A DNA stretch of 59,321 nt, from the IMG/VR virus record IMGVR_UViG_3300037882_001894, positions 1-59,321 of that record, one strand, 5' to 3'. Source of the stretch: a virus. Every line of letters starts with the position of its first letter. The first letter of the stretch is position 1. The notes below the pieces were generated by a model. It did not search any database and had not been told where the DNA came from. It was given only the letters and a program-made list of their open reading frames with translations. The position numbers were made by a program, and so were the translations under genes. Shown here piece after piece: positions 317 through 46,095 of this stretch.

Positions 317-677
317 TTTACAAATCACTGGTACATTTGTCCCATTACAACAAAATATCAAATTTAATAACCAATCTTCAATGATATATAAGTATTCTGA
401 AAAACAAATTATTGATGATGTGTTAGTATACATCGACAGCACTTATCAACAACACTATCAATCCAAAAATATTCAATTAATTGATCTCTTTGATAGTGAA
501 GATATGATTGTGGAATATCTTAAAACATCTATCATGCGATATGTGCTAAGATATGGAAAAAAAGATGGTTTTAATACCAGGGATTTGTATAAAGCTATCC
601 ATTGTATTATTTTATTGATCCACTTCACCAAGAAGAAAACCACAGATAGTCCTGAATTATTATTGGAGCAAATTTAG
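303..677 (+). CDS. DUF3310-like protein
   Basis: The protein has 124 residues. Its central part shows HYQSKNIQLIDL, then MRYVLRYGKKDGFNTRDLYK and a hydrophobic helix. This matches the DUF3310 pattern (HYq...iEvid...KYl.RyrkKng...DLkKA) found in phage proteins often annotated as nucleotide-kinase-like. The ATG at 303 lies inside the end of the preceding gene, and the stop TAG shares its last base with the GTG of the clamp gene, so translation is probably coupled. An internal ATG at 381 would still include the whole domain. Biochemical role unknown. Confidence 0.65.
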   Translation: MLNYDLQITGTFVPLQQNIKFNNQSSMIYKYSEKQIIDDVLVYIDSTYQQHYQSKNIQLIDLFDSEDMIVEYLKTSIMRYVLRYGKKDGFNTRDLYKAIHCIILLIHFTKKKTTDSPELLLEQI

Positions 678-1360
678 TGAAAATTTCAAAAGACACGTTA
701 AAGATCCTAAAAAACTACAAAAATATTAATCTATCGTATATATCAAAATCAGGAAATATTATCAGAACATTATCTGATGCCAAAAACATATATGCGGTAG
801 CTAATGTAGATGAAGAATTTCCTGATTTTGCTATATATGATTTGAAAAAATTCTTGGGAATTGTAGATTTATTTGAAGAACCAGATTTTACATTCCATGA
901 TAAATATTTGACTGTATCCACAGGTAGACAAAAAACTAAATATTTTTTCTCTGATCCTACCGTATTAACAGTCAAATTGCCAGACAAAGAAATTAACATT
1001 TCCGATGTTTTGGTGGAATTTATGCTCACTGTTGATGATATTTCTATTATAAATTCGGTTGCTGATAAACTATCATTACCAGATCTTACTGTACAGATTA
1101 TTAATGATGTTGTCGTTGCCGTGGTTTGTGATAAATCCACTAGCGCAAGCAATAATCACATCATTACACTGGATAGTGCTAATCTGTTTCCTGATGTTAT
1201 CGGTGATATCGATATATCACTGAACTTTAAAATCGAAAATCTGAAACTATTATCCGGCGATTATTGGGTTGAACTTAGTAAAAAGAAAATCTCTAAATTT
1301 ACTAATCAACATTTAGACCTTACTTATTACATAGCAATGGAGGCTACATCTGTAACATGA
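677..1360 (+). CDS. 45: DNA polymerase sliding clamp (gp45-like)
   Basis: The 227 residues are close to T4 gp45 (228). The N terminus MKISKDTLKILKNYKNIN parallels the T4 MKLSKDT...LKNFATIN start, and the FAIYDLKKFLGIVDLF segment matches the T4 AIYDLNGFLGILSL strand. gp45 is the trimeric ring that tethers the phage polymerase and, in T4, also activates late transcription by contacting gp33 and gp55. The start is GTG at 677, one base overlapping the preceding stop. The next gene, uvsX, begins inside the stop (ATGA). A gp33-type coactivator gene at 27799 and abundant late promoters fit a T4-like clamp-dependent late switch. Confidence 0.9.
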   Translation: MKISKDTLKILKNYKNINLSYISKSGNIIRTLSDAKNIYAVANVDEEFPDFAIYDLKKFLGIVDLFEEPDFTFHDKYLTVSTGRQKTKYFFSDPTVLTVKLPDKEINISDVLVEFMLTVDDISIINSVADKLSLPDLTVQIINDVVVAVVCDKSTSASNNHIITLDSANLFPDVIGDIDISLNFKIENLKLLSGDYWVELSKKKISKFTNQHLDLTYYIAMEATSVT

Positions 1361-2367
1361 AAACTACAAAAGAATTAATTAAAGCGATTGGGAATAAGAA
1401 TGCAAATTACATTCCAGATTCAGAATTTTACGGACAGAGAACACTAATTAAAACTAGTATTCCGATTGTAAACATAGCATTATCTGGATCTATTAATGGT
1501 GGTTTGAGCAGTGGTTTAACAGTGATTGCTGGTGCTTCCAAAAGTTACAAAACCGTATTATCTCTGACTTGTGCAAAAGCATATTTAGATTTATATCCTG
1601 AATCAGTTTTATTTTTCTTTGATGCTGAATATGGTGCCAGTCTCAGTTATTTTAATTCGGTAGGGATTGATATTAATAGAGTAGTACATATTCCAGTCAC
1701 CAGCGTAGAAGAATTCAAAATTCAATCTTTTGCACTATTGAATACGCTTGAGCGTGGTTACAAATGCTTTATGCTGCTGGATAGTTTGGGTGCATTAGCA
1801 TCAGAAAAAACTATTTTGGATACTACCGAAAGTAAAAATACCACTGATCTCACTAGACCAAAAGCTATTAATCTAGTAGCAAGATTGATCACACCATTAC
1901 TGAATAGTAAGGATATTCCATGTATCTTTATTAATCATTTATATGATAGTATGGATAAGTATACACCACAAAAAATGGGTGGTGGTAATGGGATACTCTA
2001 TGCATCTAATACAGTTCTGTACATTTCTAAGACCAAAATCAAAGATGGTTCAGAATTAGAAGGATACACATTTAATATCAAGATCGAAAAATCTAGATAT
2101 ATCAAAGAAGGTATGGGTTTATCTTTTGATGTGTTGTATGATGATGGTGTCCAGCCATTAAGTGGTGTTGCAGAACTAGCCATAGAATATGGTGTGCTGA
2201 CGCAAGGTGGTGGTTGGTATACCCAAAAAGATCCAACTACTGGTGAAGTAATTGGTGAGAAAATGAGAGCATCTGCACCAAGATTTACTAAAATATTGGA
2301 GGATCTATTATTAGATCAATCCTTTGATAACTTCGTCCAGAAAAAATTCAAGTTAGTTTTCGATTAA
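1357..2367 (+). CDS. uvsX: UvsX RecA-like recombinase
   Basis: RecA/UvsX-family strand-exchange ATPase, 336 residues; T4 UvsX is about 390. The Walker A loop reads GASKSYKT at residues 59-66, close to the T4 GPSKSFKS form. It is followed by a Walker B-like strand FMLLDSLGAL and the KMGGGNG segment typical of the UvsX core. It would coat ssDNA with help from gp32 and drive recombination-dependent replication and repair. The ATG overlaps the gp45 stop by four bases, and the helicase gene follows after 3 bases, so clamp, recombinase and helicase form one replication operon. No intein is seen here. Confidence 0.92.
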   Translation: MKTTKELIKAIGNKNANYIPDSEFYGQRTLIKTSIPIVNIALSGSINGGLSSGLTVIAGASKSYKTVLSLTCAKAYLDLYPESVLFFFDAEYGASLSYFNSVGIDINRVVHIPVTSVEEFKIQSFALLNTLERGYKCFMLLDSLGALASEKTILDTTESKNTTDLTRPKAINLVARLITPLLNSKDIPCIFINHLYDSMDKYTPQKMGGGNGILYASNTVLYISKTKIKDGSELEGYTFNIKIEKSRYIKEGMGLSFDVLYDDGVQPLSGVAELAIEYGVLTQGGGWYTQKDPTTGEVIGEKMRASAPRFTKILEDLLLDQSFDNFVQKKFKLVFD

Positions 2368-2370
2368 ATC

Positions 2371-4755
2371 ATGCAACTAGAACATATAATTTTATCAGCT
2401 TTAATTCACGACGAAACATTTACTAGAAAAGTATTACCATTTTTAAAAGATGAATATTTTTCTAGTGCCGCTGATAAAAATGTATTTTTGATTATAAGTA
2501 AACACTTTAATACATATAATTGTTCCCCTACCACTGAAGCTATCGCAATTGATGCTGTTAATCTGGAAGGGTTGACAGCACCTTTAGCGAAAGAAATAGA
2601 ATCTACTATTAATAAATTAGTAGAGGTTGACTATAATCTTGATTGGCTTATTGATTCTTCGGAAAAATTTTGTAAGGAACGAGCGGTATATCTCGCAATT
2701 GTAGAAGCTATTGAAATACAAGATGGTAACACTAAAAAAACTGTTTCTGCGATCCCAGATATTTTATCTAAAGCATTATCTGTGTCTTTTGACTCTAATG
2801 TCGGTCTAGATTATATTTTATCTGCTGAACAACGGTATGATGATTTCAACAAGACTGAATTAGATAAAATACCTTTTGGTCTGCATTATCTGGATAAAAT
2901 TACTAAAAATGGTTTTGGTAAGAAAACACTTAACCTGATCGTTGCCGCAGCCTCGACTGGTAAAGAACAGCCAATATCAGAACCAGTATTAACACCCAAT
3001 GGGTGGTCTACTATGGGTCAACTGCGTCCTGGTGACTATGTGATTGGTTCTGCTGGACTACCTATTGAAGTATTATCTATCCATCCGCAAGGAATAAAAG
3101 ATGTATATACAGTAGAAACGCAGGATGGGGTGAAGATCCGATGTGGTAAAGATCATTTATGGTCTGTTTATAGTTCATCTAGGATAAATGGAAAAAATGG
3201 TCAAAAATTATTTACTAAAACTACACAGGAACTTATAGATGGTGGTGTACGAAAACTAGATACCACACCAAGATTTACTTTACCAGAATTTGGTGGTGTA
3301 CAATATGGGATAAGTATTGGTTATGCTTATGCACTAGGATATTGCTTAGGTAATGGTTGTTTTAGTAGCAGTCAATTACTAGTTTCATATCATACTAAAG
3401 ATACATCTCAGATTTTGTCTTTATTGTGTAAATCATTGGGTACACCTACTCGCAATAGTATTGTTGGTGAGTTTGGTGGTCAATCTGCCTATAGTTGGGG
3501 AAAACTAGATCCAGAAATTGCTAAATATCGAAATAGTGGATTATCTCATGAAAAATCTTTACACCAAGATCATAAAAACTGGTTGTCTTGGGATTATGAT
3601 TCTAGATTAGAATTATTAAAGGGTTTATTAGATAGTGATGGTTGTATAAGTACATATAAAACTAAAAATTCTTTTAGTTCTACTTCTACCAATCTTTTGA
3701 TTTTAGTAAGAGATTTGATTAGGTCTTTAGGTGGGCGATCTGGAGAAATTCATCAAACGTCTCTTAGTGATAATTGTAAGTTTGATTATTTTGGCGCACT
3801 TTATTTTAGGATGCCCTTATGTCCATTTGAATTGAAGCAGGAACGATGGAAAAAATCTTGCTATAACATGCGTTCATCAATAAGTAGCATCACCAAAGAA
3901 GTTTACCAAGAGGAACAAGTATGTATTACAGTAGATGCACCAGATCACTTATATGTTACTACTGGGTTTAAACTTACCCACAACAGTATACTATTATGTC
4001 ATCATGCAGCACATTCTTTATCTATAGGTAAAAATGTGTTGTTCATCACCTTAGAAATGTCTGCTAATGCCATTAGTGAACGTATTGATGCTAATTTATT
4101 AGATGTAAACATTGATGATCTTTATACTAATGGTAAAGAGCATTATATGAGTAGATTTAAGAAGTTGCAAGCAAAAACTTATGGTAAATTGTATATAAAA
4201 GAGTATCCAATTAGTACAGCACATGTGGGCAATTTCACTGCCTTATTAGATGAGTTGAAAGCCAAAAAGCAGTTTGTTCCTGATATTATTGTGATTGATT
4301 ATTTGAATATTTGTGCTAGCGCAACCAACAGTACAAACAGTAATTCTTATGAGCGAGTAAAACAGATTGGTGAGCAATTGAGATCATTAGCACAAATCAA
4401 TGATGTACCGATTTTATCAGCGATCCAATTGAATAGGTCTGGGGTGGGCAATAACGATCCTGATATGTCTAATTTGGCTGATAGCTACGCACTAGGGATG
4501 GTAGCAGACTTTATTATGGCATTGGTGTCCAATGAGGCATTAGCTAGCTTAGAGCAGATTCTCTGCGTACAGATTAAAAATAGATACAGTAATATCTCAG
4601 TCAATAACAAATTTGTGTTAGGATTAGATAAGTCGCGTATGAAATTCTATGATGTAGAAGATAATTACACAGATGAGAAAAATATTACTAATGAATCTAC
4701 TGTGACATTAGTAACCAAAAAAAGACCACAACTATCATCATTCCTAACAGATTAA
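2371..4755 (+). CDS. 41: Replicative helicase gp41 (DnaB-like) with in-frame intein
   Basis: DnaB-family hexameric helicase that unwinds the fork and partners primase gp61 and loader gp59, both present in the window. The precursor has 794 residues; removing a 340-residue intein (199-538) leaves about 454, close to T4 gp41 (475). The intein splits the P-loop: the host sequence AAASTGK stops at residue 198 and resumes with Ser at 539, so splicing restores an AAASTGKS Walker A. Walker B lies in DIIVIDYLNI. The N-terminal helical domain and the RecA-like C-terminal domain (ITLEMSANAISERI onward) are intact. Start ATG lies 3 bases after uvsX. Without splicing the protein cannot bind ATP properly. 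Confidence 0.93.
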   Translation: MQLEHIILSALIHDETFTRKVLPFLKDEYFSSAADKNVFLIISKHFNTYNCSPTTEAIAIDAVNLEGLTAPLAKEIESTINKLVEVDYNLDWLIDSSEKFCKERAVYLAIVEAIEIQDGNTKKTVSAIPDILSKALSVSFDSNVGLDYILSAEQRYDDFNKTELDKIPFGLHYLDKITKNGFGKKTLNLIVAAASTGKEQPISEPVLTPNGWSTMGQLRPGDYVIGSAGLPIEVLSIHPQGIKDVYTVETQDGVKIRCGKDHLWSVYSSSRINGKNGQKLFTKTTQELIDGGVRKLDTTPRFTLPEFGGVQYGISIGYAYALGYCLGNGCFSSSQLLVSYHTKDTSQILSLLCKSLGTPTRNSIVGEFGGQSAYSWGKLDPEIAKYRNSGLSHEKSLHQDHKNWLSWDYDSRLELLKGLLDSDGCISTYKTKNSFSSTSTNLLILVRDLIRSLGGRSGEIHQTSLSDNCKFDYFGALYFRMPLCPFELKQERWKKSCYNMRSSISSITKEVYQEEQVCITVDAPDHLYVTTGFKLTHNSILLCHHAAHSLSIGKNVLFITLEMSANAISERIDANLLDVNIDDLYTNGKEHYMSRFKKLQAKTYGKLYIKEYPISTAHVGNFTALLDELKAKKQFVPDIIVIDYLNICASATNSTNSNSYERVKQIGEQLRSLAQINDVPILSAIQLNRSGVGNNDPDMSNLADSYALGMVADFIMALVSNEALASLEQILCVQIKNRYSNISVNNKFVLGLDKSRMKFYDVEDNYTDEKNITNESTVTLVTKKRPQLSSFLTD
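2965..3984 (+). other. Intein in gp41, probable class 3, with LAGLIDADG endonuclease
   Basis: Residues 199-538 of the helicase precursor. It begins with Glu (EQPISEPVLTPNGW) instead of Cys or Ser, and ends LTHN before extein Ser. The features needed for a class 3 intein are visible: Trp in block B (DHLW), Cys in block F (QVCITVDAPDHLY) and Thr in block G (LTHN). This WCT triplet splices through an internal Cys nucleophile. Two LAGLIDADG-like helices (LGYCLGNGC and LLKGLLDSDGC) indicate a homing endonuclease domain between the splicing halves. Boundaries follow from restoring the P-loop. Confidence 0.85.
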
Positions 4756-11932: not shown

Positions 11933-12634
11933 ATGTTCCATTGTAACGACAGTACCAATACATATTCCTTTGATCTACCTAACCACAATATTGATAAAAA
12001 TAGCAAGAAAAAACTAACACACAATCAATTATTCGTAGATAATAAACTACACGTATTAAACGTCATCACTGGTGAACTATATACCAATACCATTGATCTC
12101 TCTGCTGTACCACTACTAAAACAATATAATTTTGGTGTAGATAATAATGGTAGATTTGAAACAAGATCAAATGACAAAACTACATTTATACATGAACTAA
12201 TATGCAATCTCAAAACTAATAAGAATTGGGTGATTAATCATATAGATGGTGATCCCACAAACAACCAAAGATCAAATCTAGAATTAGTAACACAATGGTT
12301 CAACATTGCATTAATGAAAACTACTAATTCTTTGCCATTTGGTATAAAACATCATAATAATGGTAGTAGTTTTGTAACAGCAATTAATTTACCAACAATA
12401 AATCAAAAGATAACTTTTTGTTCGCTATTAACAGATTATCTCCAAAATATCCATTATCAGTTTGGGACTAAATCTGGTTTGGTGTCTCCACAAAGATATT
12501 TGAAAGAGACACCAAATTGGTTGCCAGACAACACTATAATCTTTACAGAAGCACATCAAGAAAAGCTAGATATGCTGATAGCAGAACATCTAGAGAATCA
12601 AGCAAAGTGGGATAAACCAGAATCAATATATTAG
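11933..12634 (+). CDS. Free-standing HNH homing endonuclease, copy 1
   Basis: 233 residues. It starts MFHCNDSTNTYSFDLPNHN, almost identical to the MIHYNDSTNTYSFDLPNHN start of its relatives, so ATG 11933 is used rather than codons inside the promoter. The nuclease core is NWVINHIDGDPTNNQRSNL (HNH_3 type). A C-terminal half (YLQNIHYQFGTKSG onward) probably recognises DNA. It sits between gp61 and dexA with its own promoter. A conserved outward promoter begins 2 bases after its stop. One of seven related copies in the window. Confidence 0.85.
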   Translation: MFHCNDSTNTYSFDLPNHNIDKNSKKKLTHNQLFVDNKLHVLNVITGELYTNTIDLSAVPLLKQYNFGVDNNGRFETRSNDKTTFIHELICNLKTNKNWVINHIDGDPTNNQRSNLELVTQWFNIALMKTTNSLPFGIKHHNNGSSFVTAINLPTINQKITFCSLLTDYLQNIHYQFGTKSGLVSPQRYLKETPNWLPDNTIIFTEAHQEKLDMLIAEHLENQAKWDKPESIY

Positions 12635-13350: not shown

Positions 13351-15210
13351 ATGTTAGTACAAAAACGGGACGGATCTAAAGAACCATTAAATATCGATAA
13401 AATCCATCGGATGCTTGAATTAGCTTGTGATGGACTAGATGTATCCATGTCTTTAATTGAGACAACCAGCAAACTACAATTTTATGATGGTGTTACTACA
13501 AAATACATTCAAAATGTATTAATCGGTGCCACGAATAAACTTATTGATCTCGATACACCGGATTATCAATATGTGGCAGCAAGATTGTTGTTATTCGGAT
13601 TGTATAAAGATTTATACCCAAATTGGCAGACATATGGGTTGGGTTCCTTGTATCAACATCTCACTAGATTTAAAGACAAGTACGATGATGTTCTATATAA
13701 TGCTTACACCAAAGAAGAATGGGATGTCTTAGATACAGTAATAAATCATTACAAAGACTACAAATTTACTTATGTATCGTTACAGCAATTATTAGATAAA
13801 TATCTCATTCAAGATCGTGCTACTGGATTTATTTACGAAACTCCACAGTATGCTTACATGAATATTGCTGCTATGGTGTTTAGTAGTTATCCACCAGACA
13901 TCAGATTAGATAAAGTTATTGATTACTATCATGCTATTTCCAATCATGAGATTAATCTACCAACTCCGATTATGGCTGGTGTGAGAACTAAGCAAAAATC
14001 CTACGCTTCATGCGCCTTGTTGGATTTACAAGATAATATACAAAGTATTGGTGCTACTAATGCTGCTATTGGGATGCTTACTGCTGCCTCATCTGGTATT
14101 GGTTTAAATGTTGGCAGAATGCGTAGTATTGGTTCTAGTATTAGAAATGGTACTGTAATCCATCCTGGTATTGTACCATTCCTGAAAATATTTGAAGCTA
14201 CTGGTAAAGCCTTCAGCCAAGCAAATCGTGGTGGGAAAGTTACAGTATATGTTCCAATTTGGAATTACGAAATTGAGGACATTATCAGATTAAAAAATAA
14301 TCGGGGTACAGAAGAAAGTTCGGTAAGACATTTAGATTATTGTATTCAATTGTCTGGGATATTCTATAAACGGTTTTTGAATAACGAACCTATTACGTTA
14401 TTCTCCACTGATGATGTACCTGGATTATATGAGGCATTTGGTACAGATAAATTTGATGAATTGTATATGCATTATGAGAAACAAGACATCCGTAAGAAGA
14501 GTGTCTTAATGCAAAAATTATTCTTGGATTTGGTGGAAGAACGGTCTGGTACAGCAAGAATCTATATCATGAATATAGATCACGCTAATACGCACTCACC
14601 ATATGAAGAAACCGTTTGTATGTCAAATCTTTGTGTTGCACCAGAGACATTATTGCTCACTGATAAAGGATACATCCCTATTGGTGAACTACAGGATAAA
14701 CCAGTTACCATTTGGAATGGTGAAGAGTGGTCTAATACAATTGTACGAAAAACTGGTGTTAATCAAAAACTGATAAAAATTAGCTTTAAAGATCAAAACG
14801 CAAATGTTCACATAATTGAATGCACACCATACCACAAATTTAAAGTTCAATTAGAAAGATTTGTAGTAGAAGTACGTGCGGCATATTTGAAACGGGGTGA
14901 TAAAATACAAAATTATTGTCATCCAGAATTTGAACTTAAAGTCAAGAATCATCAAGACTGGTTAGTATATGATGTAGAGGATAATAATAGATATGATAAT
15001 ACATATTGTTTGACAGAACCAAAAAGAAATACGATGGTGTTGAATGGTGTACTCGCTGGTAACTGTGTCGAAATTATCCAACCTTCTCGACCTCTGAATG
15101 ATATAAATGATACTGGTGTGTATCAATACAAGGTAGCAGTCAAAAAAGACCGAATACATGAATTTGTGTCATTAAAAAACAATAATAAATTTTTGGAGTT
15201 CAAACCTTAA
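13351..15210 (+). CDS. nrdA: Ribonucleotide reductase large subunit NrdA, N-terminal part, with mini-intein
   Basis: Class Ia NrdA reduces ribonucleotides to deoxyribonucleotides. This 619-residue precursor holds the first two thirds of NrdA plus a 144-residue intein (428-571). It carries the first redox Cys in SYASCALLD (C221, E. coli C225). The intein lies immediately before the Cys of the N-L-C-V-E motif, the equivalent of catalytic thiyl Cys439, so the +1 residue of splicing is the radical Cys. After PLNDINDTG the sequence departs from the usual NrdA pattern for about 30 residues and stops at 15208. The rest, from the equivalent of Cys462 on, is coded by the next gene in another frame. 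Confidence 0.9.
   Translation: MLVQKRDGSKEPLNIDKIHRMLELACDGLDVSMSLIETTSKLQFYDGVTTKYIQNVLIGATNKLIDLDTPDYQYVAARLLLFGLYKDLYPNWQTYGLGSLYQHLTRFKDKYDDVLYNAYTKEEWDVLDTVINHYKDYKFTYVSLQQLLDKYLIQDRATGFIYETPQYAYMNIAAMVFSSYPPDIRLDKVIDYYHAISNHEINLPTPIMAGVRTKQKSYASCALLDLQDNIQSIGATNAAIGMLTAASSGIGLNVGRMRSIGSSIRNGTVIHPGIVPFLKIFEATGKAFSQANRGGKVTVYVPIWNYEIEDIIRLKNNRGTEESSVRHLDYCIQLSGIFYKRFLNNEPITLFSTDDVPGLYEAFGTDKFDELYMHYEKQDIRKKSVLMQKLFLDLVEERSGTARIYIMNIDHANTHSPYEETVCMSNLCVAPETLLLTDKGYIPIGELQDKPVTIWNGEEWSNTIVRKTGVNQKLIKISFKDQNANVHIIECTPYHKFKVQLERFVVEVRAAYLKRGDKIQNYCHPEFELKVKNHQDWLVYDVEDNNRYDNTYCLTEPKRNTMVLNGVLAGNCVEIIQPSRPLNDINDTGVYQYKVAVKKDRIHEFVSLKNNNKFLEFKP
14632..15063 (+). other. Mini-intein in NrdA
   Basis: 144 residues, from C428 (CVAPETLLLTDKGYIPI) to AGN before extein Cys. 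Block B His is present (CTPYHKF), and block F/G ends VLNGVLAGN. The penultimate residue is Gly instead of the usual His. There is no room for an endonuclease domain. Boundaries follow from restoring SNL-CVEI. Confidence 0.87.
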
Positions 15211-15211
15211 T

Positions 15212-16183
15212 ATGTACGATCAACTTTTTAGAATTTTACAAGACGGCGATGCAGTATTAGACAATGAAATATTAGTAGAGAATGTTTCAATCATTGATCG
15301 CGAACCGCCTAATATTAGTAGCTGTATCTTAGGTGCCATCTCCTGGGATAAATTATCTGGTGATATGGACAAAAACTTTATTATCTTGAAACGATTATGT
15401 ATGTTAGAGATTGAATCTTTGAATAATATAATTGATCTCCAAGAATATAAAATTCCGTCTACGGAGATTGCTACCAGATGTGGCAGATATTTGGGAGTAG
15501 GGATTAATGGATTTGCTACATTTGCGGCTAGATTGGGGTTGACCTATAATGATCCAGAATTGTGGCAGATCACACATGATATTGCTGAGATGCAGATGTT
15601 TTTGTTGATGTCTGCTTCAAACAAATTAGCAAAAGATGTTGGTGAGTGCCAGTGGTTTTATAAGACAAAATATGCTAATGGTATTTTGCCAATCGATACT
15701 TATAAAAAGGCAGTTGATGAAATAGTTCCCAATGCCCTCAAAATGGACTGGGAAGGCTTGAGAAAATCAATTTATATGTATGGACTCAGAAACAGTGCTT
15801 TCGCGGCTGTAATGCCCGTACAGAGTTCATCTGTGATTAGTAACAGCACCAATGGGATTGAACTACCTCGCTCACCATTAACCATCATCAAATCTAAAAA
15901 TGGATTACTGAGACAGATTGTAAAAGATTTTGATAAATTGGAAGATAATTATACATATGCATGGGAGAAACCAACCAACAAAGGATACATCAATATCTGT
16001 GCAGTCATTCAGAAATTTTTCGATCAAAGTATATCAGCAAATGCATATTATGATCCATCATGGTATGGTGGTACTGTACCAATTTCCGTGATGACAGAGG
16101 ATATTTTGTATGCTTACAAAATGGGACTGAAGACACTATATTATTGCAATACTAACGATAATAGAGACGATATGGAGACTTGA
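15212..16183 (+). CDS. nrdA: NrdA C-terminal part
   Basis: 323 residues covering the last third of the NrdA barrel: ISSCILGAIS (equivalent of redox Cys462), GILPIDTYKK, the GLRNSAFAAVMP and SNSTNGIELPR motifs, and the radical-transfer Tyr pair in LKTLYYCNT. It ends 11 residues after that pair (TNDNRDDMET), without the mobile C-terminal tail that carries the CxxxxC redox pair in standard NrdA. The first 33 residues have no clear NrdA counterpart. The ATG is one base after the upstream TAA and the frame differs by +1, so it is either a split subunit or a frameshifted gene. A promoter overlaps its stop. Confidence 0.88.
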   Translation: MYDQLFRILQDGDAVLDNEILVENVSIIDREPPNISSCILGAISWDKLSGDMDKNFIILKRLCMLEIESLNNIIDLQEYKIPSTEIATRCGRYLGVGINGFATFAARLGLTYNDPELWQITHDIAEMQMFLLMSASNKLAKDVGECQWFYKTKYANGILPIDTYKKAVDEIVPNALKMDWEGLRKSIYMYGLRNSAFAAVMPVQSSSVISNSTNGIELPRSPLTIIKSKNGLLRQIVKDFDKLEDNYTYAWEKPTNKGYINICAVIQKFFDQSISANAYYDPSWYGGTVPISVMTEDILYAYKMGLKTLYYCNTNDNRDDMET

Positions 16184-16477: not shown

Positions 16478-18547
16478 ATGTCAGTAATAAACACAAATTC
16501 AAATATAGATTTTACAAAAGAACCGCAATTTTTTGGCGAAACTTTGGGAATTCAGCGATATGACCAGTATAAATATCCAGCATTACATCAGTTATACAAA
16601 ACACAAAAAAATTATTATTGGTCGCCTTCTGAAATATCCCTACAGAAAGACAGAGGCGATTATTCAACATTAACTGCTAATGAAAAGTTTATCTATACTT
16701 CTAATTTAAAATATCAAATTTTATTAGATAGTATTCAATCTCGATCTACAAGTTTAGCATTTTTGCCATTTGTATCTTTACCAGAACTGGAAAAGAACAT
16801 CATCGTTTGGAGTTTCTTTGAAACTATCCATAGTGAATCCTATACTCATATTATTGAAAATGTATATAGTGAACCATCCACTGTGTTTGATCACATATTA
16901 AACGATGTGGAAATTATTAAACGTTCCAATAGTGTTACAAAATATTACGATGAATTTATTAAACTTTCCTCAGCTTATTATAACAATGATATTGTTAAAG
17001 AATTAGTAAATGATAATAATCTCACTGCCAGATCTCTATTATTAGATTTGAAGCGGTCATTGTACCTATCAATGGTGAATGTTAATATTTTAGAAGGTAT
17101 TAGATTTTATACTTCTTTTGCTTGTTCATTCGCATTTGCTGAAAATAGTAAAATGATCGGTTCAGCAGACATTATATCATTGATTGCTAGAGATGAAGCT
17201 TGTTACACACCAGCACACGAATGTTTAACACAATCTGGATGGAAATATATTAAAAATGTAACATTAGATGATAAAGTATTGCAATTTAATAGTAACAATA
17301 CTGTGGAATTTGTAAACCCCACAGACATAATAACTAAAAAATACCAAGATGAACTATATCATTTTTATGATGATCATGATACTTTTGAGCAGATAGTCAC
17401 TAAAGATCATCGAATGATTTGGCGAGATCTTACTAATGGTAGGTTGCGAGAATCCACCGCCGAAAATACAGCTTTTACAACTAGTTATAAAGCTGTAATT
17501 TTGAGTGGGTTGTTATTGGAAGGGGAAATCGAGATTTCCCCAATTGAAATATTAAACATATTTTTTGAATATTGTGGTAGAGTAATGGCGGTATCTGGTG
17601 ATAATCTTGATCTACAAATGACATTAAAAAATGTTGATTGGTGGCGGATACTTGGTGCAGCTTTGACTAAATTAGGGATCTCCTATGATTATAAAGTTAA
17701 CTATAAAACTAGTGTATACACAGTAACATTAACTGTACCAACTATTACACTAAAGAAATATTTTGGTTGGGTAGATATTAAAGGCAAATCCACTATATGG
17801 GCACAGAATGTAATAAAACTTTGTCGCATACTAAGCAACAATATTAATTATACTACACATACCGAACCAAAGTTTAAATTTTATGTTAATAATGCAGCAT
17901 CATTATTAAAAATTCAGGAATTGTTTGCTATTTCTTATTGGAAGATACGTGCTTCAAAACACTACAAGATCAATCATGGACATACTATCACTGTAGATAC
18001 TAGCAGAAATCATGTCAAAACAAATAATATCCAAATTAAAAAAATACAATATTCTGGATTAGTGCATTGTTTGACAGTACCATCTGGTGCATTTTTAGTC
18101 CGACATAATGGTAAAGTATCAGTTGGTGGTAATTGTCATCGTAGACTGAGCGAAACTGTTATAAAAAATTGGCAGAATGGCGACGATCCTGATTTTACTG
18201 ATATCATTAAAGAAGAAGAATTGACCGTCTATGATATGTTTAGAACTGCTGTAGATGAAGAAATTGCTTGGGCGAATCATTTATTCAAGGACGGTAGTGT
18301 ATTAGGATTGAATGCAGAAATTTTGACTCAATATATCAAATTTACTGCTAATCAAAGATTAAAATCTCTTAATCTTAAACCATTGTTTCCTGATATTAGT
18401 AAGAAAAATCCAATCCCCTGGATCGATAATTATCTAAAATCTTCAAATATATCTGTTGCCCCAATGGAGACTGAGATCATATCGTATATGATTGGTAACG
18501 TTGTTCGTGACGTAGCGGAAAATCAATTTGCTAATTTTGAATTATGA
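16478..18547 (+). CDS. nrdB: Ribonucleotide reductase small subunit NrdB with intein
   Basis: The diiron-tyrosyl radical subunit of class Ia RNR, 689 residues including a 311-residue intein (242-552). Ligands match E. coli numbering: D84 (LLDSIQ), E115 and H118, and radical Tyr Y122 in FETIHSESYTH. The EGIRFY Glu and the RDEAxH pair complete the site. The intein separates the Glu and His of that last motif: RDEA stops at 241 and CHRRL resumes at 553, so an unspliced protein cannot build the diiron centre. The stop overlaps the ATG of HNH copy 2 (ATGA). A preceding terminator implies a separate promoter, not clearly seen. Confidence 0.92.
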   Translation: MSVINTNSNIDFTKEPQFFGETLGIQRYDQYKYPALHQLYKTQKNYYWSPSEISLQKDRGDYSTLTANEKFIYTSNLKYQILLDSIQSRSTSLAFLPFVSLPELEKNIIVWSFFETIHSESYTHIIENVYSEPSTVFDHILNDVEIIKRSNSVTKYYDEFIKLSSAYYNNDIVKELVNDNNLTARSLLLDLKRSLYLSMVNVNILEGIRFYTSFACSFAFAENSKMIGSADIISLIARDEACYTPAHECLTQSGWKYIKNVTLDDKVLQFNSNNTVEFVNPTDIITKKYQDELYHFYDDHDTFEQIVTKDHRMIWRDLTNGRLRESTAENTAFTTSYKAVILSGLLLEGEIEISPIEILNIFFEYCGRVMAVSGDNLDLQMTLKNVDWWRILGAALTKLGISYDYKVNYKTSVYTVTLTVPTITLKKYFGWVDIKGKSTIWAQNVIKLCRILSNNINYTTHTEPKFKFYVNNAASLLKIQELFAISYWKIRASKHYKINHGHTITVDTSRNHVKTNNIQIKKIQYSGLVHCLTVPSGAFLVRHNGKVSVGGNCHRRLSETVIKNWQNGDDPDFTDIIKEEELTVYDMFRTAVDEEIAWANHLFKDGSVLGLNAEILTQYIKFTANQRLKSLNLKPLFPDISKKNPIPWIDNYLKSSNISVAPMETEIISYMIGNVVRDVAENQFANFEL
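17201..18133 (+). other. Intein in NrdB
   Basis: 311 residues from C242 (CYTPAHECLTQSGWKYI) to VGGN before extein Cys. Block B is TKDHRMIW. The penultimate residue is Gly, as in the NrdA intein. The middle is long enough for an endonuclease, but only weak LAGLIDADG-like helices are visible (LSGLLLEGE), so it may be decayed. Confidence 0.85.
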
Positions 18548-19239
18548 TCCATTATAACGACAGCACCAATCTACATTCTTTCGATCTCCCCAATCACAAT
18601 GTTACTAAATCCACTAATACTATAAAAACATATAATCAATTATTCGTAGATAATAAACTACACGTACTAAACACCATCACTGGTCATTTCTATACCAGCA
18701 CTATCGATATTTCTGCTGTACCACTACTAAAACAATATAATTTTGGTGTAGATAGTGCTGGTAGATTTAAAACATGGATAAATAGAAAAACTACATACAT
18801 ATACGAACTAATATGCAATATTAAAACTAATAAGAATTGGGTGATCAATCATATAGATGGTGATTCTAACAACAACCAAAGAGCAAATCTAGAATTAGTA
18901 ACAAATTGGTTCAATACTGCATTGAAGAAAACTACTAATTCTTTACCATTAGGTATGACCCATCATGGTACTAGTTTTAAAACACAAATTTGTCTACCAA
19001 CTACCACACAAAAGATAACTTTTTGTTCGCTATCAACAGATTATCTCCAAAATATCCATTATCAATTTGGTACTAAATCTGGATTAGTATCTCCAGCAAG
19101 ATATTTACAATCCACACCAAATTGTTTGCCTGACAACAGCATAATATTTAAACCAGCACATCAAGAAAAGTTAGATGTGCTGGTGAGAGAGCATCTAGAG
19201 AATCAAGCAAAATGGAATAAACCTACTCCAATATATTGA
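18544..19239 (+). CDS. HNH homing endonuclease, copy 2
   Basis: 231 residues with the family N terminus (MIHYNDSTNLHSFDLPNHN) and the NWVINHIDGDSNNNQRANL nuclease core. The ATG overlaps the nrdB stop by four bases and, unlike most copies, no private -10 box is visible upstream, so it is probably translated from the nrdB message. A TTGACT/TATAAT promoter begins one base after its stop. Located next to an intein-containing host gene, as expected for an element that has homed into nucleotide-metabolism genes. Confidence 0.85.
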   Translation: MIHYNDSTNLHSFDLPNHNVTKSTNTIKTYNQLFVDNKLHVLNTITGHFYTSTIDISAVPLLKQYNFGVDSAGRFKTWINRKTTYIYELICNIKTNKNWVINHIDGDSNNNQRANLELVTNWFNTALKKTTNSLPLGMTHHGTSFKTQICLPTTTQKITFCSLSTDYLQNIHYQFGTKSGLVSPARYLQSTPNCLPDNSIIFKPAHQEKLDVLVREHLENQAKWNKPTPIY

Positions 19240-21215: not shown

Positions 21216-21734
21216 ATGAGTAAATATTTATTAAAGTTTGCCCTTAACACTAATAAATCTTCATCACTAATTGTGGGTTCTCTACAGTTAATCAAAGATG
21301 ATGTTTTGATTAATGAGTATAGAGCAACATCATCTTATAAAGGGTTTCAATATGACGGTTCTTGGAATGAAAAAGGTGGGTTGATACCGCCCACAGAAGT
21401 TTTAAAACAACGTAGAGGTGCCAATTCTTTTTATGAAGTCAAGACTTCACCAATAAAAATGCCCAATGTTAAGGGTGTAAATGGCGACTTTTTCCAAATA
21501 TTGCCATTTTCTACTGTTATGAGTAATGGTGTTGAACGTGGTGATTTTGGTTGCCACGCCGACAAATATAATGAACTACAAGGATACGATCCTGATATGC
21601 CCAAGTCTGGTGAGGGAACATTGGGTTGTATTGGTTTCCGTACTGGTAAAGGATATGCTGCATTCAGACGTGATATGAAAACTATCAAAGCAGAAGGTGT
21701 TACATCTATAGAATTATTAGTCAAATATACTTAA
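21216..21734 (+). CDS. L,D-transpeptidase-like wall-active protein
   Basis: 172 residues. The C-terminal half shows a His followed about 22 residues later by GTLGCIGF (GCHADKYNELQ...GEGTLGCIGF). This resembles the His...GC(I/V)G catalytic pattern of YkuD-like L,D-transpeptidases and related phage murein enzymes. The tape-measure-like protein at 36281 carries a comparable GIHLDANRTRSPGSAGCLVF segment. It has no signal peptide, so it would act from within the virion or through a holin. The late promoter and terminator arrangement upstream mark it as the first gene of a late unit. Endolysin is possible but not proven. Confidence 0.55.
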   Translation: MSKYLLKFALNTNKSSSLIVGSLQLIKDDVLINEYRATSSYKGFQYDGSWNEKGGLIPPTEVLKQRRGANSFYEVKTSPIKMPNVKGVNGDFFQILPFSTVMSNGVERGDFGCHADKYNELQGYDPDMPKSGEGTLGCIGFRTGKGYAAFRRDMKTIKAEGVTSIELLVKYT

Positions 21735-22412: not shown

Positions 22413-22856
22413 ATGAACACAGATTTTATAAAGTTATTAGTATCACTAAACATAATTAGTATGTCCCAAGCAAAAAAAATTACACAAATCGTAGAATATT
22501 ACAAACAAGAAGCTGCTAAACCAAAAAGTGATGCAGAAATTCTATTAAAAGTTGAAGAACTACAATCTAAAGTAGATGAATTGGTAGCGGTTTCTGCTGA
22601 AGTAGATGCTGTTGTCGATGCCTATATTAAAGAACTTCCTGTAGTTGAAGCACCAGTTGAAGCACCAGTTGAAGAACCAGTTGAAGAACCAGTTGAAGCA
22701 GTTGAAGCTGTTGAAGCTGTTGAAGTTGTTGAAGCAGTTGAAGTTGTTGAAGCAGTTGAAGTTGTTGAAGCAGTTGAAGCAGTTGAAGCAGTTGAAGCAG
22801 TCGAAGCAGTTGAAGCTGTTGAAGAACCAAAATATATTATTCAATACCCCGAATAA
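22413..22856 (+). CDS. Protein with VEA/PVEE tandem repeats
   Basis: 147 residues. The first 70 are helical (SMSQAKKITQIVEYYKQEA; LLKVEELQSKVDEL). They are followed by a repeat tract of PVEA/PVEE units and then about 15 VEA/VEV units, ending EEPKYIIQYPE. The repeat region is coded by 12- and 9-base tandem units. Repeats of this type form extended, strongly acidic arms; spacer or linker function is possible. No family recognised. Confidence 0.55.
   Translation: MNTDFIKLLVSLNIISMSQAKKITQIVEYYKQEAAKPKSDAEILLKVEELQSKVDELVAVSAEVDAVVDAYIKELPVVEAPVEAPVEEPVEEPVEAVEAVEAVEVVEAVEVVEAVEVVEAVEAVEAVEAVEAVEAVEEPKYIIQYPE
22641..22829 (+). repeat. In-frame tandem repeat array
   Basis: About five 12-base units of the CCAGTTGAAGCA type followed by about fifteen 9-base units of the GTTGAAGCA type with GCT/GTT variants. 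Near-identical units suggest recent expansion by slippage. Confidence 0.85.
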
Positions 22857-24131: not shown

Positions 24132-24647
24132 ATGTCTATACTATATGATTGTAATCAATTTTTGATTGGTTCTATGCTAGTGTGTGAGAATTTGGGACAA
24201 GACGTGGACTTGGAACTAATACGAAAATTATTTGTCAAACAGATAAATCAATATGCTATTAGATTTTCACAATATGGCAGTCCAATACTATGTTTTGATA
24301 ATCAAGTGTATTGGAGAAAACAAAAATTCCCACACTATAAACACAACAGAAAAAATGATCGAAAAAAATCTAAAACTGATTGGAGTAAAATTTTTACCGA
24401 TATAAACTCCATCAAGGACAAACTAATAGATGGTGTGTATCCTGTATTAGATGTTCATGGGGCAGAAGCGGATGACTTGATAGCCTGTATAGCCAAACAT
24501 GAGAATAGTATAAATCAGAATACTATGATCATATCAGGGGATAAAGACTTCATTCAGTTATTGATCTATGATAATGTGTCAATATACAATCACCAGAAAA
24601 AAATTTTATTAGTGGGAGAAACTGGTTATGAACGCCGTATGCTATAA
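24132..24647 (+). CDS. rnh: RNase H (T4 Rnh-like 5' nuclease), N-terminal part
   Basis: 171 residues of a FEN-type 5'-3' nuclease that removes RNA primers. Visible metal-site acids: D in ILYDCNQF, ILCFDNQVYW with the basic PHYKHNRKNDRKK helix, GAEADDLIACIA and MIISGDKDFIQL. The frame stops at 24647 (ERRML), before the last conserved acidic motif, which appears in the next frame 20 bases back. T4 Rnh has 305 residues, and this part plus the next gives a similar total. It is either a split gene, a +1 frameshift product or a decayed gene; a single extra base near 24628-24645 would explain it. Confidence 0.8.
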   Translation: MSILYDCNQFLIGSMLVCENLGQDVDLELIRKLFVKQINQYAIRFSQYGSPILCFDNQVYWRKQKFPHYKHNRKNDRKKSKTDWSKIFTDINSIKDKLIDGVYPVLDVHGAEADDLIACIAKHENSINQNTMIISGDKDFIQLLIYDNVSIYNHQKKILLVGETGYERRML

Positions 24648-24951
24648 AAAAGAAGAGTTGACTGCACTATTATTAGAGCATATCATTAGAGGTGATCGTA
24701 GCGATGGTATCCCGAATATACACTCCGATGATAATTGTTTTGTCATTAATAAAAGACAAACGCCTATCACTAGCAAGACTATGACCAAAGTGTTCGACAA
24801 CCCAGCAGAATATTGTGATAGTAATGGTATTGCTGATAACTATAAAAGAAATCAGGTATTAATCGATTTTCAACATATTCCTGACGAATTGTATGAACGC
24901 ATAATCGATGCATATAAATATAGAAAACAATATAATCTACTAAAGAGATAA
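24628..24951 (+). CDS. rnh: RNase H C-terminal part
   Basis: 107 residues continuing Rnh: IIRGDRSDGIPNI matches the T4 LKGDKKDNVASV metal-binding motif, and NQVLIDFQHIPDELYERIID matches the T4 NLVLIDFDYIPDNIAS segment. The ATG at 24628 lies in the +1 frame and overlaps the upstream part by 20 bases, so translation could be coupled. The two halves together hold all acidic residues of the active site; neither would be active alone. Confidence 0.75.
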   Translation: MNAVCYKKEELTALLLEHIIRGDRSDGIPNIHSDDNCFVINKRQTPITSKTMTKVFDNPAEYCDSNGIADNYKRNQVLIDFQHIPDELYERIIDAYKYRKQYNLLKR

Positions 24952-25516: not shown

Positions 25517-25894
25517 ATGAAAATATTAAATTGCACAAAGAAAGACGTTAAGATTTTTGACAAAACATGTCTTACCAAAGATTATGATGATTGGATGGTC
25601 GATCAAGATAAAATTCCGATGTTCAAATTATATCCAACATCGGAAGAAGATTATTCGGTATTGCATATTCCTGATACCGAATCTATACACCCGATTATTA
25701 AATTATTTAAGGCTGCTTCACCAAATATTCCATCAGACGGGTATGACTATTACATAGTAAATTACAATCAATTAATTTACTATGTAGCCAATAATATCCA
25801 TGTTGGTAAACTGGTGCTGCCGCATGACTATGTACTTGGTGATTATTTTGAAATCTCTGGGTACACTTCACTAAAATTAGTAACATATGATTAA
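25517..25894 (+). CDS. Uncharacterised protein
   Basis: 125 residues from the ATG at 25517; earlier codons overlap the -10 box. Acidic and Tyr-rich, with a beta-strand-rich C terminus (GDYFEISGYTSLKLVTYD). Not recognised. The stop overlaps the thyX ATG by 8 bases, so the two are translationally linked. Confidence 0.55.
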   Translation: MKILNCTKKDVKIFDKTCLTKDYDDWMVDQDKIPMFKLYPTSEEDYSVLHIPDTESIHPIIKLFKAASPNIPSDGYDYYIVNYNQLIYYVANNIHVGKLVLPHDYVLGDYFEISGYTSLKLVTYD

Positions 25895-26711
25895 CACGCT
25901 AAACAGAATCACAGAACACAATAAAGAACTTGGAATTGTAGATGTCACTGTATCTGCGGATTCTATCAATGAATTAGGAAATAGAATTACTACATTTATA
26001 CTACATAGATTTCCTAAAGGTGCCTGTCAAGCCGAATTAAATAAGCACAGAACCATTGCTAATAATAGTTTTAGTTCTCGCGCTGTTAATAAAAGCAAAT
26101 ATATCGAAAATATAAAAAATGATCCATACATACCAATATGGACATACAACAAACCAGGAATGATTGGTGATGTAGTGGAAGATGTCAAATATATCAAACA
26201 TCTCACCAATCAATATTTGAAAAAGATGGAGTATGATGTTGCGTATGTGCATAACAATTATGATGATATACATAAACAAGATACTAATACACAATTAGAT
26301 CATTATGCTCGAATCCCTATTATTGTTACTTCTACAAATTGGGAATACTTTTTTAATTTGCGTACTGCTGATGGGGTAAAACCAGAATTTAGACGTATTG
26401 CTATGATTGCACAAGAATTGTATAACAACAATACTCCAACAGAAACTAATTGGCACATTCCGTGGATAAAACCAGATGAACAGCATTTATCGGTAGAAGA
26501 TAAGTGTATTATGTGTGCTGCAAGAAGTGCGTGGTTATCATATGCTAATCATTTGGGTGAACAATCATTAGAACGTGCCCAAAAATTAGTATCAAGATTG
26601 ATAGCTGATAAGCACTATTCCACGCTAGATCATGCTGCTATTAGCGAACCTAATAGAGTTGGTGGTATATATACTGGGTGGACAGAACACCGACAATTAA
26701 TCCTAACTTAA
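25887..26711 (+). CDS. thyX: Flavin-dependent thymidylate synthase ThyX
   Basis: 274 residues. ThyX makes dTMP from dUMP with FAD, NADPH and methylene-tetrahydrofolate. The signature RHRx7S is present as KHRTIANNSFS (K53-S63), with the first Arg replaced by Lys, followed by SSRA. The FFNLRTADGVKPEFRRIA segment matches the dUMP-binding region. It follows an unknown gene by overlap and precedes nblA by 2 bases. With NrdA, NrdB and MazG-like it forms the phage nucleotide-supply set. Confidence 0.88.
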   Translation: MINTLNRITEHNKELGIVDVTVSADSINELGNRITTFILHRFPKGACQAELNKHRTIANNSFSSRAVNKSKYIENIKNDPYIPIWTYNKPGMIGDVVEDVKYIKHLTNQYLKKMEYDVAYVHNNYDDIHKQDTNTQLDHYARIPIIVTSTNWEYFFNLRTADGVKPEFRRIAMIAQELYNNNTPTETNWHIPWIKPDEQHLSVEDKCIMCAARSAWLSYANHLGEQSLERAQKLVSRLIADKHYSTLDHAAISEPNRVGGIYTGWTEHRQLILT

Positions 26712-26713
26712 TT

Positions 26714-26902
26714 ATGCAAGAAAAAACTGATAATCTTACTCTTGAACAGTTGTTTGCCTGTACTAAATTTAAAGCATTAGTTGAGAAAATGTCTCTAGAT
26801 CAATCTAAAATGATGTTGTTGGAAATGCATCGACAAATGATGATTCAGAGTAATCATTATCAGCAAATATTGAAGCATCATTGGTTCTCTGATCTTAAAT
26901 AA
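26714..26902 (+). CDS. nblA: NblA phycobilisome degradation protein
   Basis: 62 residues, the size of cyanobacterial NblA (about 60). The sequence LTLEQLFACTKFKALVEKMS matches the NblA pattern LSLEQQF...F...V..MS. It continues with DQSKMMLLEMHRQMM and ends YQQILKHHW, like the Y..LLKH.W end of NblA. NblA is a small helical adaptor that delivers phycobilisome proteins to Clp protease. Phage copies are known from freshwater cyanophages and may free amino acids or reduce light capture. The ATG at 26714, 2 bases after thyX, is chosen because the family start is close to it; an upstream GTG/ATG would lie inside thyX. Confidence 0.85.
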   Translation: MQEKTDNLTLEQLFACTKFKALVEKMSLDQSKMMLLEMHRQMMIQSNHYQQILKHHWFSDLK

Positions 26903-26923: not shown

Positions 26924-27151
26924 ATGCCGACTTATATTTTTAAAGACACCCGAACTAATGTCAAATTCGAGAAATATTTGGGAATGTCTGAACTAGACGA
27001 TTTTAAACTACAAAACAAACACTTACAGCAGGTACCCACTGGGTTAAATGTTGTAGGCGGAGTTGGTGATATTAAAATTGATGATGGTTTTAAATCTATT
27101 CTCAACAATATTCGCGAAAATAATCCTGGTTCCACTATGAGAAAATATTAA
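26924..27151 (+). CDS. FmdB-like small protein of cyanomyoviruses
   Basis: 75 residues starting MPTYIFKDTRTNVKFEKYLG and containing MSELDDF and IDDGFKSILNNI. The same plan (MPTY-F-D, MSELD-F, DGFKDVLNNI) occurs in proteins annotated as FmdB-family regulators in cyanophages. The zinc-ribbon Cys residues of true FmdB are absent here. It lies immediately before the exonuclease gene with one base between them. Role unknown; a transcription or replication accessory is possible. Confidence 0.7.
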   Translation: MPTYIFKDTRTNVKFEKYLGMSELDDFKLQNKHLQQVPTGLNVVGGVGDIKIDDGFKSILNNIRENNPGSTMRKY

Positions 27152-27152
27152 A

Positions 27153-27809
27153 ATGACCATAGAATTGAATTTTTGGGAAAACAAAGAATATAATCGAGTA
27201 GTGGTAGATGGTGTGCGACATTACGACATCGAAGGAAACTACTATCCATCTGTCACTAGTGTAACATCAGCTTATGGTAAGGCTGGGATTGATAAATGGA
27301 GAAAAAAAGTTGGTGAAGAGGAAGCCAATAGGATCTGCAATACTGCGTCCGCTAATGGCACGTATATACACCATTTAGCAGAGCAATATATCTTGGGTAA
27401 TACTATAGATCATAGTAGATCTACATATTTACAAAAAATGATATTTGGTAATCTCAAAACCAATATCAATAAAATATCTGAGGTAAATTTATTAGAGAAT
27501 ACTTTGTTCTCCCATAAGCTTAAATTAGCTGGTACAGTCGATTGTGTTGGTGTCTATGATGGTAAATTGTCTATCATAGATTTCAAGACAGCAAAGGCAG
27601 AAAAGAAAGAGTCTTGGGTAGAATCATATATAGTACAGACAACTATATATTCGATGATGGTCTACGAAATGTATGGAATAAAGATCAGACAGATTGTGTT
27701 GCTGTTCGCTTGTAGTGATCTAACAACACCGATTATTGTAAAAACTATAGATAAAGACTTATTAGAATTAGTAAAAAAATACATAGAATTTTATCGCAAT
27801 GCTAAATAA
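27153..27809 (+). CDS. PD-(D/E)XK exonuclease (RecB-like)
   Basis: 218 residues. Motifs of the RecB/Cas4-type nuclease fold in order: GTYIHHLAEQYI (His motif), KLAGTVDCVG (Asp), LSIIDFKTAK (D-x-K) and YIVQTTIYSMM (QxxxY). This gene is widespread in cyanomyoviruses beside gp33 and gp59, the same neighbours as here. It probably processes DNA ends in recombination or repair. The last 11 bases overlap the gp33 gene. Confidence 0.8.
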   Translation: MTIELNFWENKEYNRVVVDGVRHYDIEGNYYPSVTSVTSAYGKAGIDKWRKKVGEEEANRICNTASANGTYIHHLAEQYILGNTIDHSRSTYLQKMIFGNLKTNINKISEVNLLENTLFSHKLKLAGTVDCVGVYDGKLSIIDFKTAKAEKKESWVESYIVQTTIYSMMVYEMYGIKIRQIVLLFACSDLTTPIIVKTIDKDLLELVKKYIEFYRNAK

Positions 27810-28054: not shown

Positions 28055-28642
28055 ATGAGTAGTTTAGGTTATAATGCATATACTACATATGTAGCAGTAA
28101 AAATGCACTTTACCAGTAAAAAGTACAATTATTTCAGACACAAGGGTAGTAAAATTTCTGAAGGTGCGTTAAGAAAAAATAATGATCGATACTGGTTTAT
28201 GAAACTACAGGATAAATATTCGGAAGATGATTTGTTATCTTTTTTCCTAGCACAATACACTGCTAACCATATGCATAATTATTGGGTTGGTGATTCTTTT
28301 GGTGATAAATGTCAAGAATTGTACCATGATTATCAGAAAAGAATGGGTCAATTCACGCGATTTGTAAATCAAGATATTGCTGATCTATACAATACATATA
28401 ATCACGATGAAATATATAAGGTATCTTCTGGATATCCAAAGATCATAACATCATATTTGGCTGGTAAAATCTCACTAGAAACGCTGATTGTATTGGACGA
28501 ATTAAATGGCTGGGTGGGAGAATCTGAGGCATTAGTTGGTTTGGTGGGGGAACCATTGTTAAATAAGATAGAAAAATACCGACCATTCCTTAATTACAAT
28601 ATAGTACCAATTCGGAAAAAATATAATCAAATATTCACTTGA
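28055..28642 (+). CDS. 59: Helicase loader gp59
   Basis: 195 residues; T4 gp59 has 217. Matching segments: VAVKMHFTSKKYNYFRHKG (T4 YLMIKQHMNGKYDVIKYN), NNDRYWFMKLQDKYSEDDLLSFFLA, NHMHNYWVGD and IITSYLAGKISLETLIVLDEL. gp59 binds fork DNA and gp32 and loads gp41 onto the lagging strand. All three partners (41, 61, 32) are in the window. One base after gp33. Confidence 0.85.
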   Translation: MSSLGYNAYTTYVAVKMHFTSKKYNYFRHKGSKISEGALRKNNDRYWFMKLQDKYSEDDLLSFFLAQYTANHMHNYWVGDSFGDKCQELYHDYQKRMGQFTRFVNQDIADLYNTYNHDEIYKVSSGYPKIITSYLAGKISLETLIVLDELNGWVGESEALVGLVGEPLLNKIEKYRPFLNYNIVPIRKKYNQIFT

Positions 28643-28992: not shown

Positions 28993-29907
28993 ATGATAGA
29001 TCTTAAAGCTTTCAAACAACGACAACGTGCTACATCTTTGACAGAAATTACTGAATCCTATCAATACAAAGGATCAAACTACGTCGATTCCCGTTACTGG
29101 AAACTACCAACTCCTGACAAAAAAGATGGTGCGTATAGTGGAGCAATCATTCGGTTTTTGCCTTCACACAACCCCGAAAAACCTTTTATTACAACCTATT
29201 CCTACAGTTTTAATGGAATCAATGGACAGTACATCGAAGAGTCGTTAGAAACGCTTGGGAAGCCAGATCCAGTTCAACAATACAACTCTAAACTTTGGAG
29301 TACTGGTGATGAGGACAAAAGAGCAGATACTAAAAAACGCAGCCGAAAACTGCATTATATTGGTAATATTTTAGTAGTTAAAGATCCTACTCGTCCTGAT
29401 AATGAGGGTAAAGTATTTTTGTTTAAGTTTGGTGTTAAAATTTACGAAAAGCTGTTGGCAGCTATGCAAGGTGATGAAATGGCGATGGAAGCACCAATCG
29501 ACATTTTTGATCTAGACGAGGGTGCTAATTTTTCCCTCAACATGACGTATAGTGGTAAAACTGGATTTTTTGTGTACGATAAATCCAAATTCTTGCGTTG
29601 CTCCAGTATTGGTGACGAAGATTATCAAGAAATAGTAGTTGGTACTATTTATGATTTGGATGCTTGTGAACCAGTCAAATACAAGACATTTGAGTCATTG
29701 AAAGAGCGATTTGATGCAGTCATGACTAAAGGTACTGTCGCCGCTGATGAATCCCAACCAGACGATGAACTAGAACTACCACAAGAACCCGCAATTCCCG
29801 TTGAGAAAAAAGCAGCTAAAGTTAAAGTCAGCCTACCAAAACCTCCTACTATGGATGATGAATTTGCTGAGTTTGATTCTTTAGTGGATGATGATATTCC
29901 TTTCTAA
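28993..29907 (+). CDS. 32: ssDNA-binding protein gp32
   Basis: 304 residues; T4 gp32 has 301. Signatures: [14 protein letters not shown], the [20 protein letters not shown] and [12 protein letters not shown] segments (T4 [23 protein letters not shown]) and an acidic tail ending [17 protein letters not shown] that would recruit gp59 and other partners. The zinc-finger Cys residues of T4 gp32 are missing: no Cys occurs before about residue 205. This agrees with the PDPV-type cyanophage variant. No Shine-Dalgarno precedes the ATG; expression is probably controlled through the leader pseudoknot. Confidence 0.92.
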   Translation: [304 protein letters not shown]

Positions 29908-31518: not shown

Positions 31519-31944
31519 TTATATATTCTCTTCAGTGAGGATCTTGAATTCTATTTCTTTGTCTTTGCACCATTCTGAAGCAGCATTCCATTTTGCCAGA
31601 TTTTTGTGGTATATTTTTAGTGCTTCTATATATGGTTTAGTGGGTTTGGTGGGTTTTTTGGGTTCAAGCGTCTCTTTTTTTGGCTTGATTTCTACCATTA
31701 TTTTTTTGCAGTCTATTGTTTCTATCAAAAAGTCTGGATAGTATTTGTGTAGTTTGTTGTCTTCTTCTAGAAAATATGGGATCGCGATTCCTTCTGAATT
31801 CCAGTGTAAAATATTAGGATTTGTGTCACAGTATGTCATGAATTTATGCTCCCAACTGGATCGATAAGTGATCTGCCCTTTTCCAATATATTTCTCTGGA
31901 TTTTTTGGTGTAAATGTGCCCTGATGATAATGTTTTCTGCTCAT
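31519..31944 (-). CDS. 4: Head completion protein gp4
   Basis: 141 residues. The N-terminal FTPKNPEKYIGKGQITYRSSWE, followed by HKFMTYCDTNPN and KYYPDFLIE...MVEIKP, matches the T4 gp4 (also called gp50/65) head-completion family. That family has a PD-(D/E)XK-type nuclease fold (SSWE, PDF, E-x-K). It acts after packaging to prepare the head for tail joining. First gene of the 4-48-53 operon, driven by a minus-strand late promoter 27 bases upstream of the ATG. Confidence 0.85.
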   Translation of the reverse strand: MSRKHYHQGTFTPKNPEKYIGKGQITYRSSWEHKFMTYCDTNPNILHWNSEGIAIPYFLEEDNKLHKYYPDFLIETIDCKKIMVEIKPKKETLEPKKPTKPTKPYIEALKIYHKNLAKWNAASEWCKDKEIEFKILTEENI

Positions 31945-46077: not shown

Positions 46078-46086
46078 TGATATGTG

Positions 46087-46095
46087 TGTTATACT
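46087..46095 (+). promoter_or_regulatory. Extended -10 promoter of HNH copy 5
   Basis: TGT then TATACT (46090-46095); a second TATAAT at 46101-46106. ATG at 46119. Confidence 0.55.

Follow-up and report, generated by a model that had tools for sequence, protein, structure and literature searches.

A full-length NblA family member beside thyX in an uncultured T4-superfamily phage

NblA hands phycobilisome proteins to the Clp protease (PMC7966870), with an N-terminal motif that binds ClpC and a C-terminal motif that binds phycobiliproteins (PMC4103541), the former role being ascribed to an LTMEQ-like sequence (PMC4103541, PMC5083919). Phage-encoded versions were first found in Ma-LMM01 (2008), then in PaV-LD, MaMV-DC and phages from marine viral metagenomes, and nblA has also been reported, using HHpred, in the T4-like phage S-SCSM1 and its relatives (PMC9602691). 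Expression of nblA is early and strong during Ma-LMM01 infection (PMC4103541), in the course of which the host phycobilisomes are degraded (PMC5780444). Expression of phage nblA in Synechocystis or S. elongatus results in phycobilin loss, and the benefit suggested for the phage is a supply of amino acids along with protection from excess light (PMC9602691). Phage nblA as such has been known since 2008, and the interest of the gene described here lies in its phage lineage and in a possible link to dNTP synthesis.

The DNA analysed (henceforth the window) is the 59,321-bp IMG/VR virus contig IMGVR_UViG_3300037882_001894, a fragment from an uncultured virus. Its genes of interest are:

677..4755, plus strand: gp45 clamp, UvsX recombinase and gp41 helicase of the T4-superfamily core (phrog_223, phrog_97, phrog_19)
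13351..16183, plus strand: nrdA in two ORFs, 13351-15210 and 15212-16183 (phrog_84/phrog_86 and PF02867/PF00268, jointly with nrdB)
16478..18547, plus strand, upstream of nblA: nrdB (same families, jointly with nrdA)
24132..24647, plus strand: N-terminal part of a 5'-3' exonuclease of the RNase H type (PF02739, E 2.2e-19; phrog_107)
25887..26711, plus strand: thyX, FAD-dependent thymidylate synthase (PF02511, E 4.2e-7; phrog_85, 1.4e-18)
26714..26902, plus strand: nblA, phycobilisome-degradation adaptor homologue of 62 aa (PF04485, 1ojh_A, AlphaFold2)
26924..27151, plus strand: 75-aa protein, weakly FmdB/transcriptional-regulator-like (phrog_385 'transcriptional regulator', 3.9e-9)
27153..27809, plus strand: PD-(D/E)XK exonuclease (phrog_298, 1.3e-60; PF12705)
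28055..28642, plus strand: helicase loader, gp59-type (phrog_269, 2.5e-35)
28993..29907, plus strand: gp32 single-strand DNA-binding protein (PF08804, 1.6e-35)
31519..31944, minus strand: gp4 head completion/closure protein (phrog_218, 6e-51)

The first-pass annotation had placed nblA in a T4-like replication module, and the profile matches of gp32, gp45, UvsX, gp41 and gp59 bear this out; by these core genes and gp4 the record is a T4-superfamily phage. A gp61-type primase was also recognized in the core, as were baseplate genes alongside gp4, and no gp23 capsid, gp20 portal or gp17 terminase was recognized among the ORFs scanned in the 59-kb fragment. Identities to sequenced phages reach about 54% at most, the best values being 38-41% for gp32 (to Synechococcus phages), 43% for gp45 and 52-54% for gp4 (among them up to 52% to cyanophages; 46% to a Pelagibacter phage). 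A megablast search with a 25-kb stretch of the record gave no match, and scans of viral contigs with the single proteins NblA, ThyX, gp32, gp4 and UvsX found no relatives.

Several coding regions of the window appear interrupted. The two nrdA ORFs lie 2 nt apart and each carries extra residues at the break, which is similar to the nrdA fission known in Aeromonas phage Aeh1. The first of them holds an apparently complete mini-intein of about 130 aa, and a split intein in nrdA was rejected on this account. Intein-like insertions are also seen in the gp41 helicase (2371-4755; large, LAGLIDADG-type), nrdB (16478-18547; large) and an RNA ligase (54852-56954; large, with Hint and LAGLIDADG_2), which together with that of nrdA brings the candidate inteins in the 59 kb to four. 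The window also encodes at least five HNH homing-type endonucleases that are related to one another (11933-12634, 18544-19239, 42925-43620, 46077-46808 and 53917-54615), and a further homing endonuclease lies at 52776-53489. The RNase H-type exonuclease seems broken, apparently lying in two overlapping frames (24132-24647 and 24628-24951) with a break near 24640 that may be a frameshift, an assembly error or a real split. The 147-aa protein at 22413-22856 has a V-E-A repeat in its second half (EAVEAVEVVEAV...), which accounts for the long open frames on other strands there.

The nblA frame is intact, with its ATG at 26714 and TAA at 26902, and translates as MQEKTDNLTLEQLFACTKFKALVEKMSLDQSKMMLLEMHRQMMIQSNHYQQILKHHWFSDLK. 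A codon-usage score prefers this frame over the other five, and its base composition and codon frame are those of the phage itself. It starts 2 bp after the stop of thyX, whose placement upstream in the initial description holds with the PF02511 match, and 21 bp separate its end from the start of the next ORF. The same description had called that next gene FmdB-like, and this stands only in part: the phrog_385 match (3.9e-9) is weak, the likeness is confined to an N-terminal MPTYIF, and the 75-residue product has neither a Pfam or NCBIfam match nor the zinc-ribbon cysteines.

As had been proposed from its letters, the 62-residue protein is an NblA: it matches PF04485 with 51.3 bits (E 1.6e-13) over profile positions 1-50 of 50, about twice the curated cut-off of 25 bits, and is the only match to this profile in the 59,321-bp record. 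It also matches Anabaena NblA (PDB 1ojh_A; E 2.1e-9, about 40% identity over the whole domain), and its length falls within the family range of roughly 55-65 aa. The best cellular relative, from one genome among about 390 cyanobacterial genomes, shares 47% identity over 56 residues (E 3e-11). With the NCBIfam NblA equivalog NF045916 the protein scores 21.5 bits, below the required >100 bits. We rejected this shortfall as an argument against NblA identity since the model covers one subtype only: the S. elongatus type scores 122.5, and the NblAs of Anabaena (24.1) and Ma-LMM01 (14.4) are also low. A tblastn search of 50,697 phage records gave no match, which reflects the short query rather than absence, as Anabaena NblA likewise finds nothing. 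The product of 26714-26902 is hence a full-length, intact NblA family member inside a T4-superfamily phage.

The complete NblA plan that had been read into the protein is present, with LxLEQ and Y..(I/L)LKH.W both kept. The former is LTLEQ at residues 8-12, in which L8, E11 and Q12 are invariant, and the putative phycobiliprotein-binding LKH.W region retains Y49, L53, K54, H55 and W57, with I instead of L/F at position 52 and F in place of the G following the W. Among positions conserved at 90% or more across about 100 host and viral NblAs the window protein keeps 18 of 28, and at less conserved positions it has the commonest residue in only 3 of 24 (Fisher p 2e-4), so the likeness is not a chance resemblance. 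This pattern is what a family member that has diverged under constraint would show. The ten changed positions include Q13 to L, Q22 to L, E46 to S and G58 to F. In an NblA tree, built from too few alignment columns, the protein joins two host NblAs (88/81) on a branch of 2.86, a placement that for the same reason was not used to name a host. AlphaFold2 places helices at 10-25 and 28-61 (mean pLDDT 87.7), and the protein is predicted to fold as the NblA helix-turn-helix hairpin; a Foldseek search of the PDB with this model gave no match at all, the hairpin being very short for such a search.

The closest described counterparts are the NblAs of the Microcystis phages Ma-LMM01 and MaMV-DC (Fukuivirus), which are Pfam-level NblAs like that of the window, encoded by lytic cyanobacterial myoviruses, as the window phage probably is, with nblA beside a dNTP gene in each case. 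Their proteins are about 34-37% identical to that of the window and score similarly against PF04485 in the same type of search (52.0 and 52.3 bits respectively, 50.5 for the window, 45.4 for PaV-LD). For all three of these known phage NblAs, published experiments support the function. Unlike the window phage, Ma-LMM01 has no gp32 match, and expression of these nblA genes in infection has been shown by published experiment. The Planktothrix phage PaV-LD also has a Pfam-level NblA, but it is integrase-bearing, belongs to a non-T4-like lineage and encodes a very divergent version; the best match of this protein is phrog_23930, which the window NblA matches weakly. Conversely, the marine cyanomyoviruses S-SCSM1 and S-TIM5 are T4-like and have a reported nblA (Nadel 2019, PMC9602691), but their proteins are reported to cluster with picocyanobacterial NblA and lack a PF04485 match. 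A search with this profile found none in S-TIM5, S-SCSM1, S-CRM01 or an Aphanizomenon phage, and profile comparison of the S-SCSM1 protein with the standard NblA family yielded no alignment. The cellular NblA of Nostoc/Anabaena sp. PCC 7120 (1ojh) is a solved helical hairpin of about 40% identity, whose conserved G after the W and second-helix E are changed in the window protein. The window NblA is best classed, on these comparisons, with the standard freshwater/filamentous type.

Among the records searched, Pfam-level NblA is uncommon in T4-superfamily phages: the 50 nearest T4-like viral contigs tested contained none, no NblA was found in the DNA of 80 loci, and T4 gp32 (PF08804) was found in 0 of 20 longer nblA contigs, with S-SCSM1 detected as positive control; the viral contigs compared are fragments. 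A pattern scan recovered host-like nblA on 62 viral contigs; on one of them (L128) the gene lies beside tail sheath and tube genes, and some of the others may be host fragments. On the 97.5-kb viral contig IMGVR_UViG_3300035018_000013 (L160 and L187), two different nblA genes are separated by about 23 kb.

Most of the best relatives of the window's core genes come from phages of Synechococcus and Prochlorococcus, but for some genes Pelagibacter phages come about equally close. The T4-like core was for this reason rejected as proof of a cyanobacterial host, and NblA becomes the main host clue. As the proposed working NblA would act on phycobilisomes, a phycobilisome-bearing cyanobacterium is a reasonable inference for the host. 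No further photosynthesis genes were recognized among the ORFs scanned in the 59-kb fragment. Of 146 cyanobacterial genomes, 3 encode relatives (38-44% identity, best E 6e-15) of a 172-aa protein without a family match (21216-21734), which would agree mildly with such a host.

We propose, with a probability of roughly 0.8, that nblA encodes a working phage NblA that delivers phycobiliproteins to the host ClpC protease, supplying amino acids. The protein would be made early or in mid infection together with ThyX and the replication proteins and would dimerise, with the C-terminal helix (Y..ILKHHW) binding phycobilisome rods and the N-terminal LTLEQ binding host ClpC, such that phycobiliproteins are passed on to the ClpC-ClpP protease. 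Gains for the phage may be amino acids, nitrogen and reduced absorption of excess light while photosynthesis still powers its replication. The role suggested at the outset, in which the antenna is broken down for its amino acids or to limit light damage, fits the profile match, the motifs and the published experiments (PMC4103541, PMC5780444, PMC9602691). The divergence of the protein (10 of 28 conserved positions, the 2.86 branch) would weigh against a working NblA, as would the Pelagibacter phages among the relatives of the T4 core and the lack of a further photosynthesis gene among the ORFs scanned. It is conceivable, though improbable, that the altered NblA is a decoy which, by pairing with host NblA or by occupying ClpC or the rods, blocks or redirects host-driven breakdown so that the antenna stays intact. 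Several conserved positions are indeed altered, among them E46 to S and G58 to F, and interference is possible in principle given that Synechocystis NblA acts as a heterodimer (Baier 2014, as cited in PMC7966870). However, both motifs described for ClpC and phycobiliprotein binding are retained (PMC4103541), and the reports on phage NblAs to date describe promotion of breakdown (PMC9602691). Even less probable is a ClpC adaptor re-aimed from phycobilisomes to other host proteins, for instance defence or regulatory ones; the long branch and divergent helix surface would be in its favor, as would a host that is inferred rather than proven to be phycobilisome-bearing, but the phycobilisome-side C-terminal motif is kept besides the ClpC side. 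A recently captured or decaying copy, useless to the phage, could account for the fast divergence, but is very hard to reconcile with an ORF that is intact and shares the base composition and codon frame of the phage, tight packing within a core gene cluster, and conserved residues selectively retained at about 40% identity, which needs long-term selection.

The proposed working NblA acquires a further context from its neighbors, as nblA adjoins thymidylate/dNTP genes in four phage lineages: it follows thyX in the window, overlaps nrdA in Ma-LMM01, overlaps thymidylate kinase, its direct neighbor, by 4 bp in PaV-LD, and in a group of about 45 IMG/VR contigs precedes a ThyA-type synthase (PF00303) by about 0.7 kb or less, with nrdA coming next. 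These neighbors (thyX, nrdA, thymidylate kinase and thyA) belong to different families. For about eight further types with nblA, the proteins tested included no thymidylate/dNTP neighbor. Adjacency in 3-4 of 12, at a guessed chance of 5% per genome, gives a binomial probability of about 0.02 or less, a rough hand estimate with categories chosen post hoc; moreover, the NrdAs of Ma-LMM01 and the IMG/VR group are 46% identical, so that these two cases may not be independent of each other. The pairing is suggestive only, and because of the after-the-fact categories we keep it as a lead. This raises the speculative and rather doubtful scenario that a deep T4-superfamily lineage acquired standard-type NblA independently, and that cyanophages repeatedly wire nblA into dNTP operons so that one nitrogen-to-DNA module turns on antenna breakdown along with dNTP synthesis.

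Should the gene work as proposed, phage-driven phycobilisome breakdown would extend to a T4-like lineage well removed from the cultured cyanophages. The window nblA also offers a clue to the host of an uncultured virus. Its pairing with thymidylate and ribonucleotide-reduction genes leads to a testable idea, namely that the antenna may be dismantled to feed DNA synthesis.
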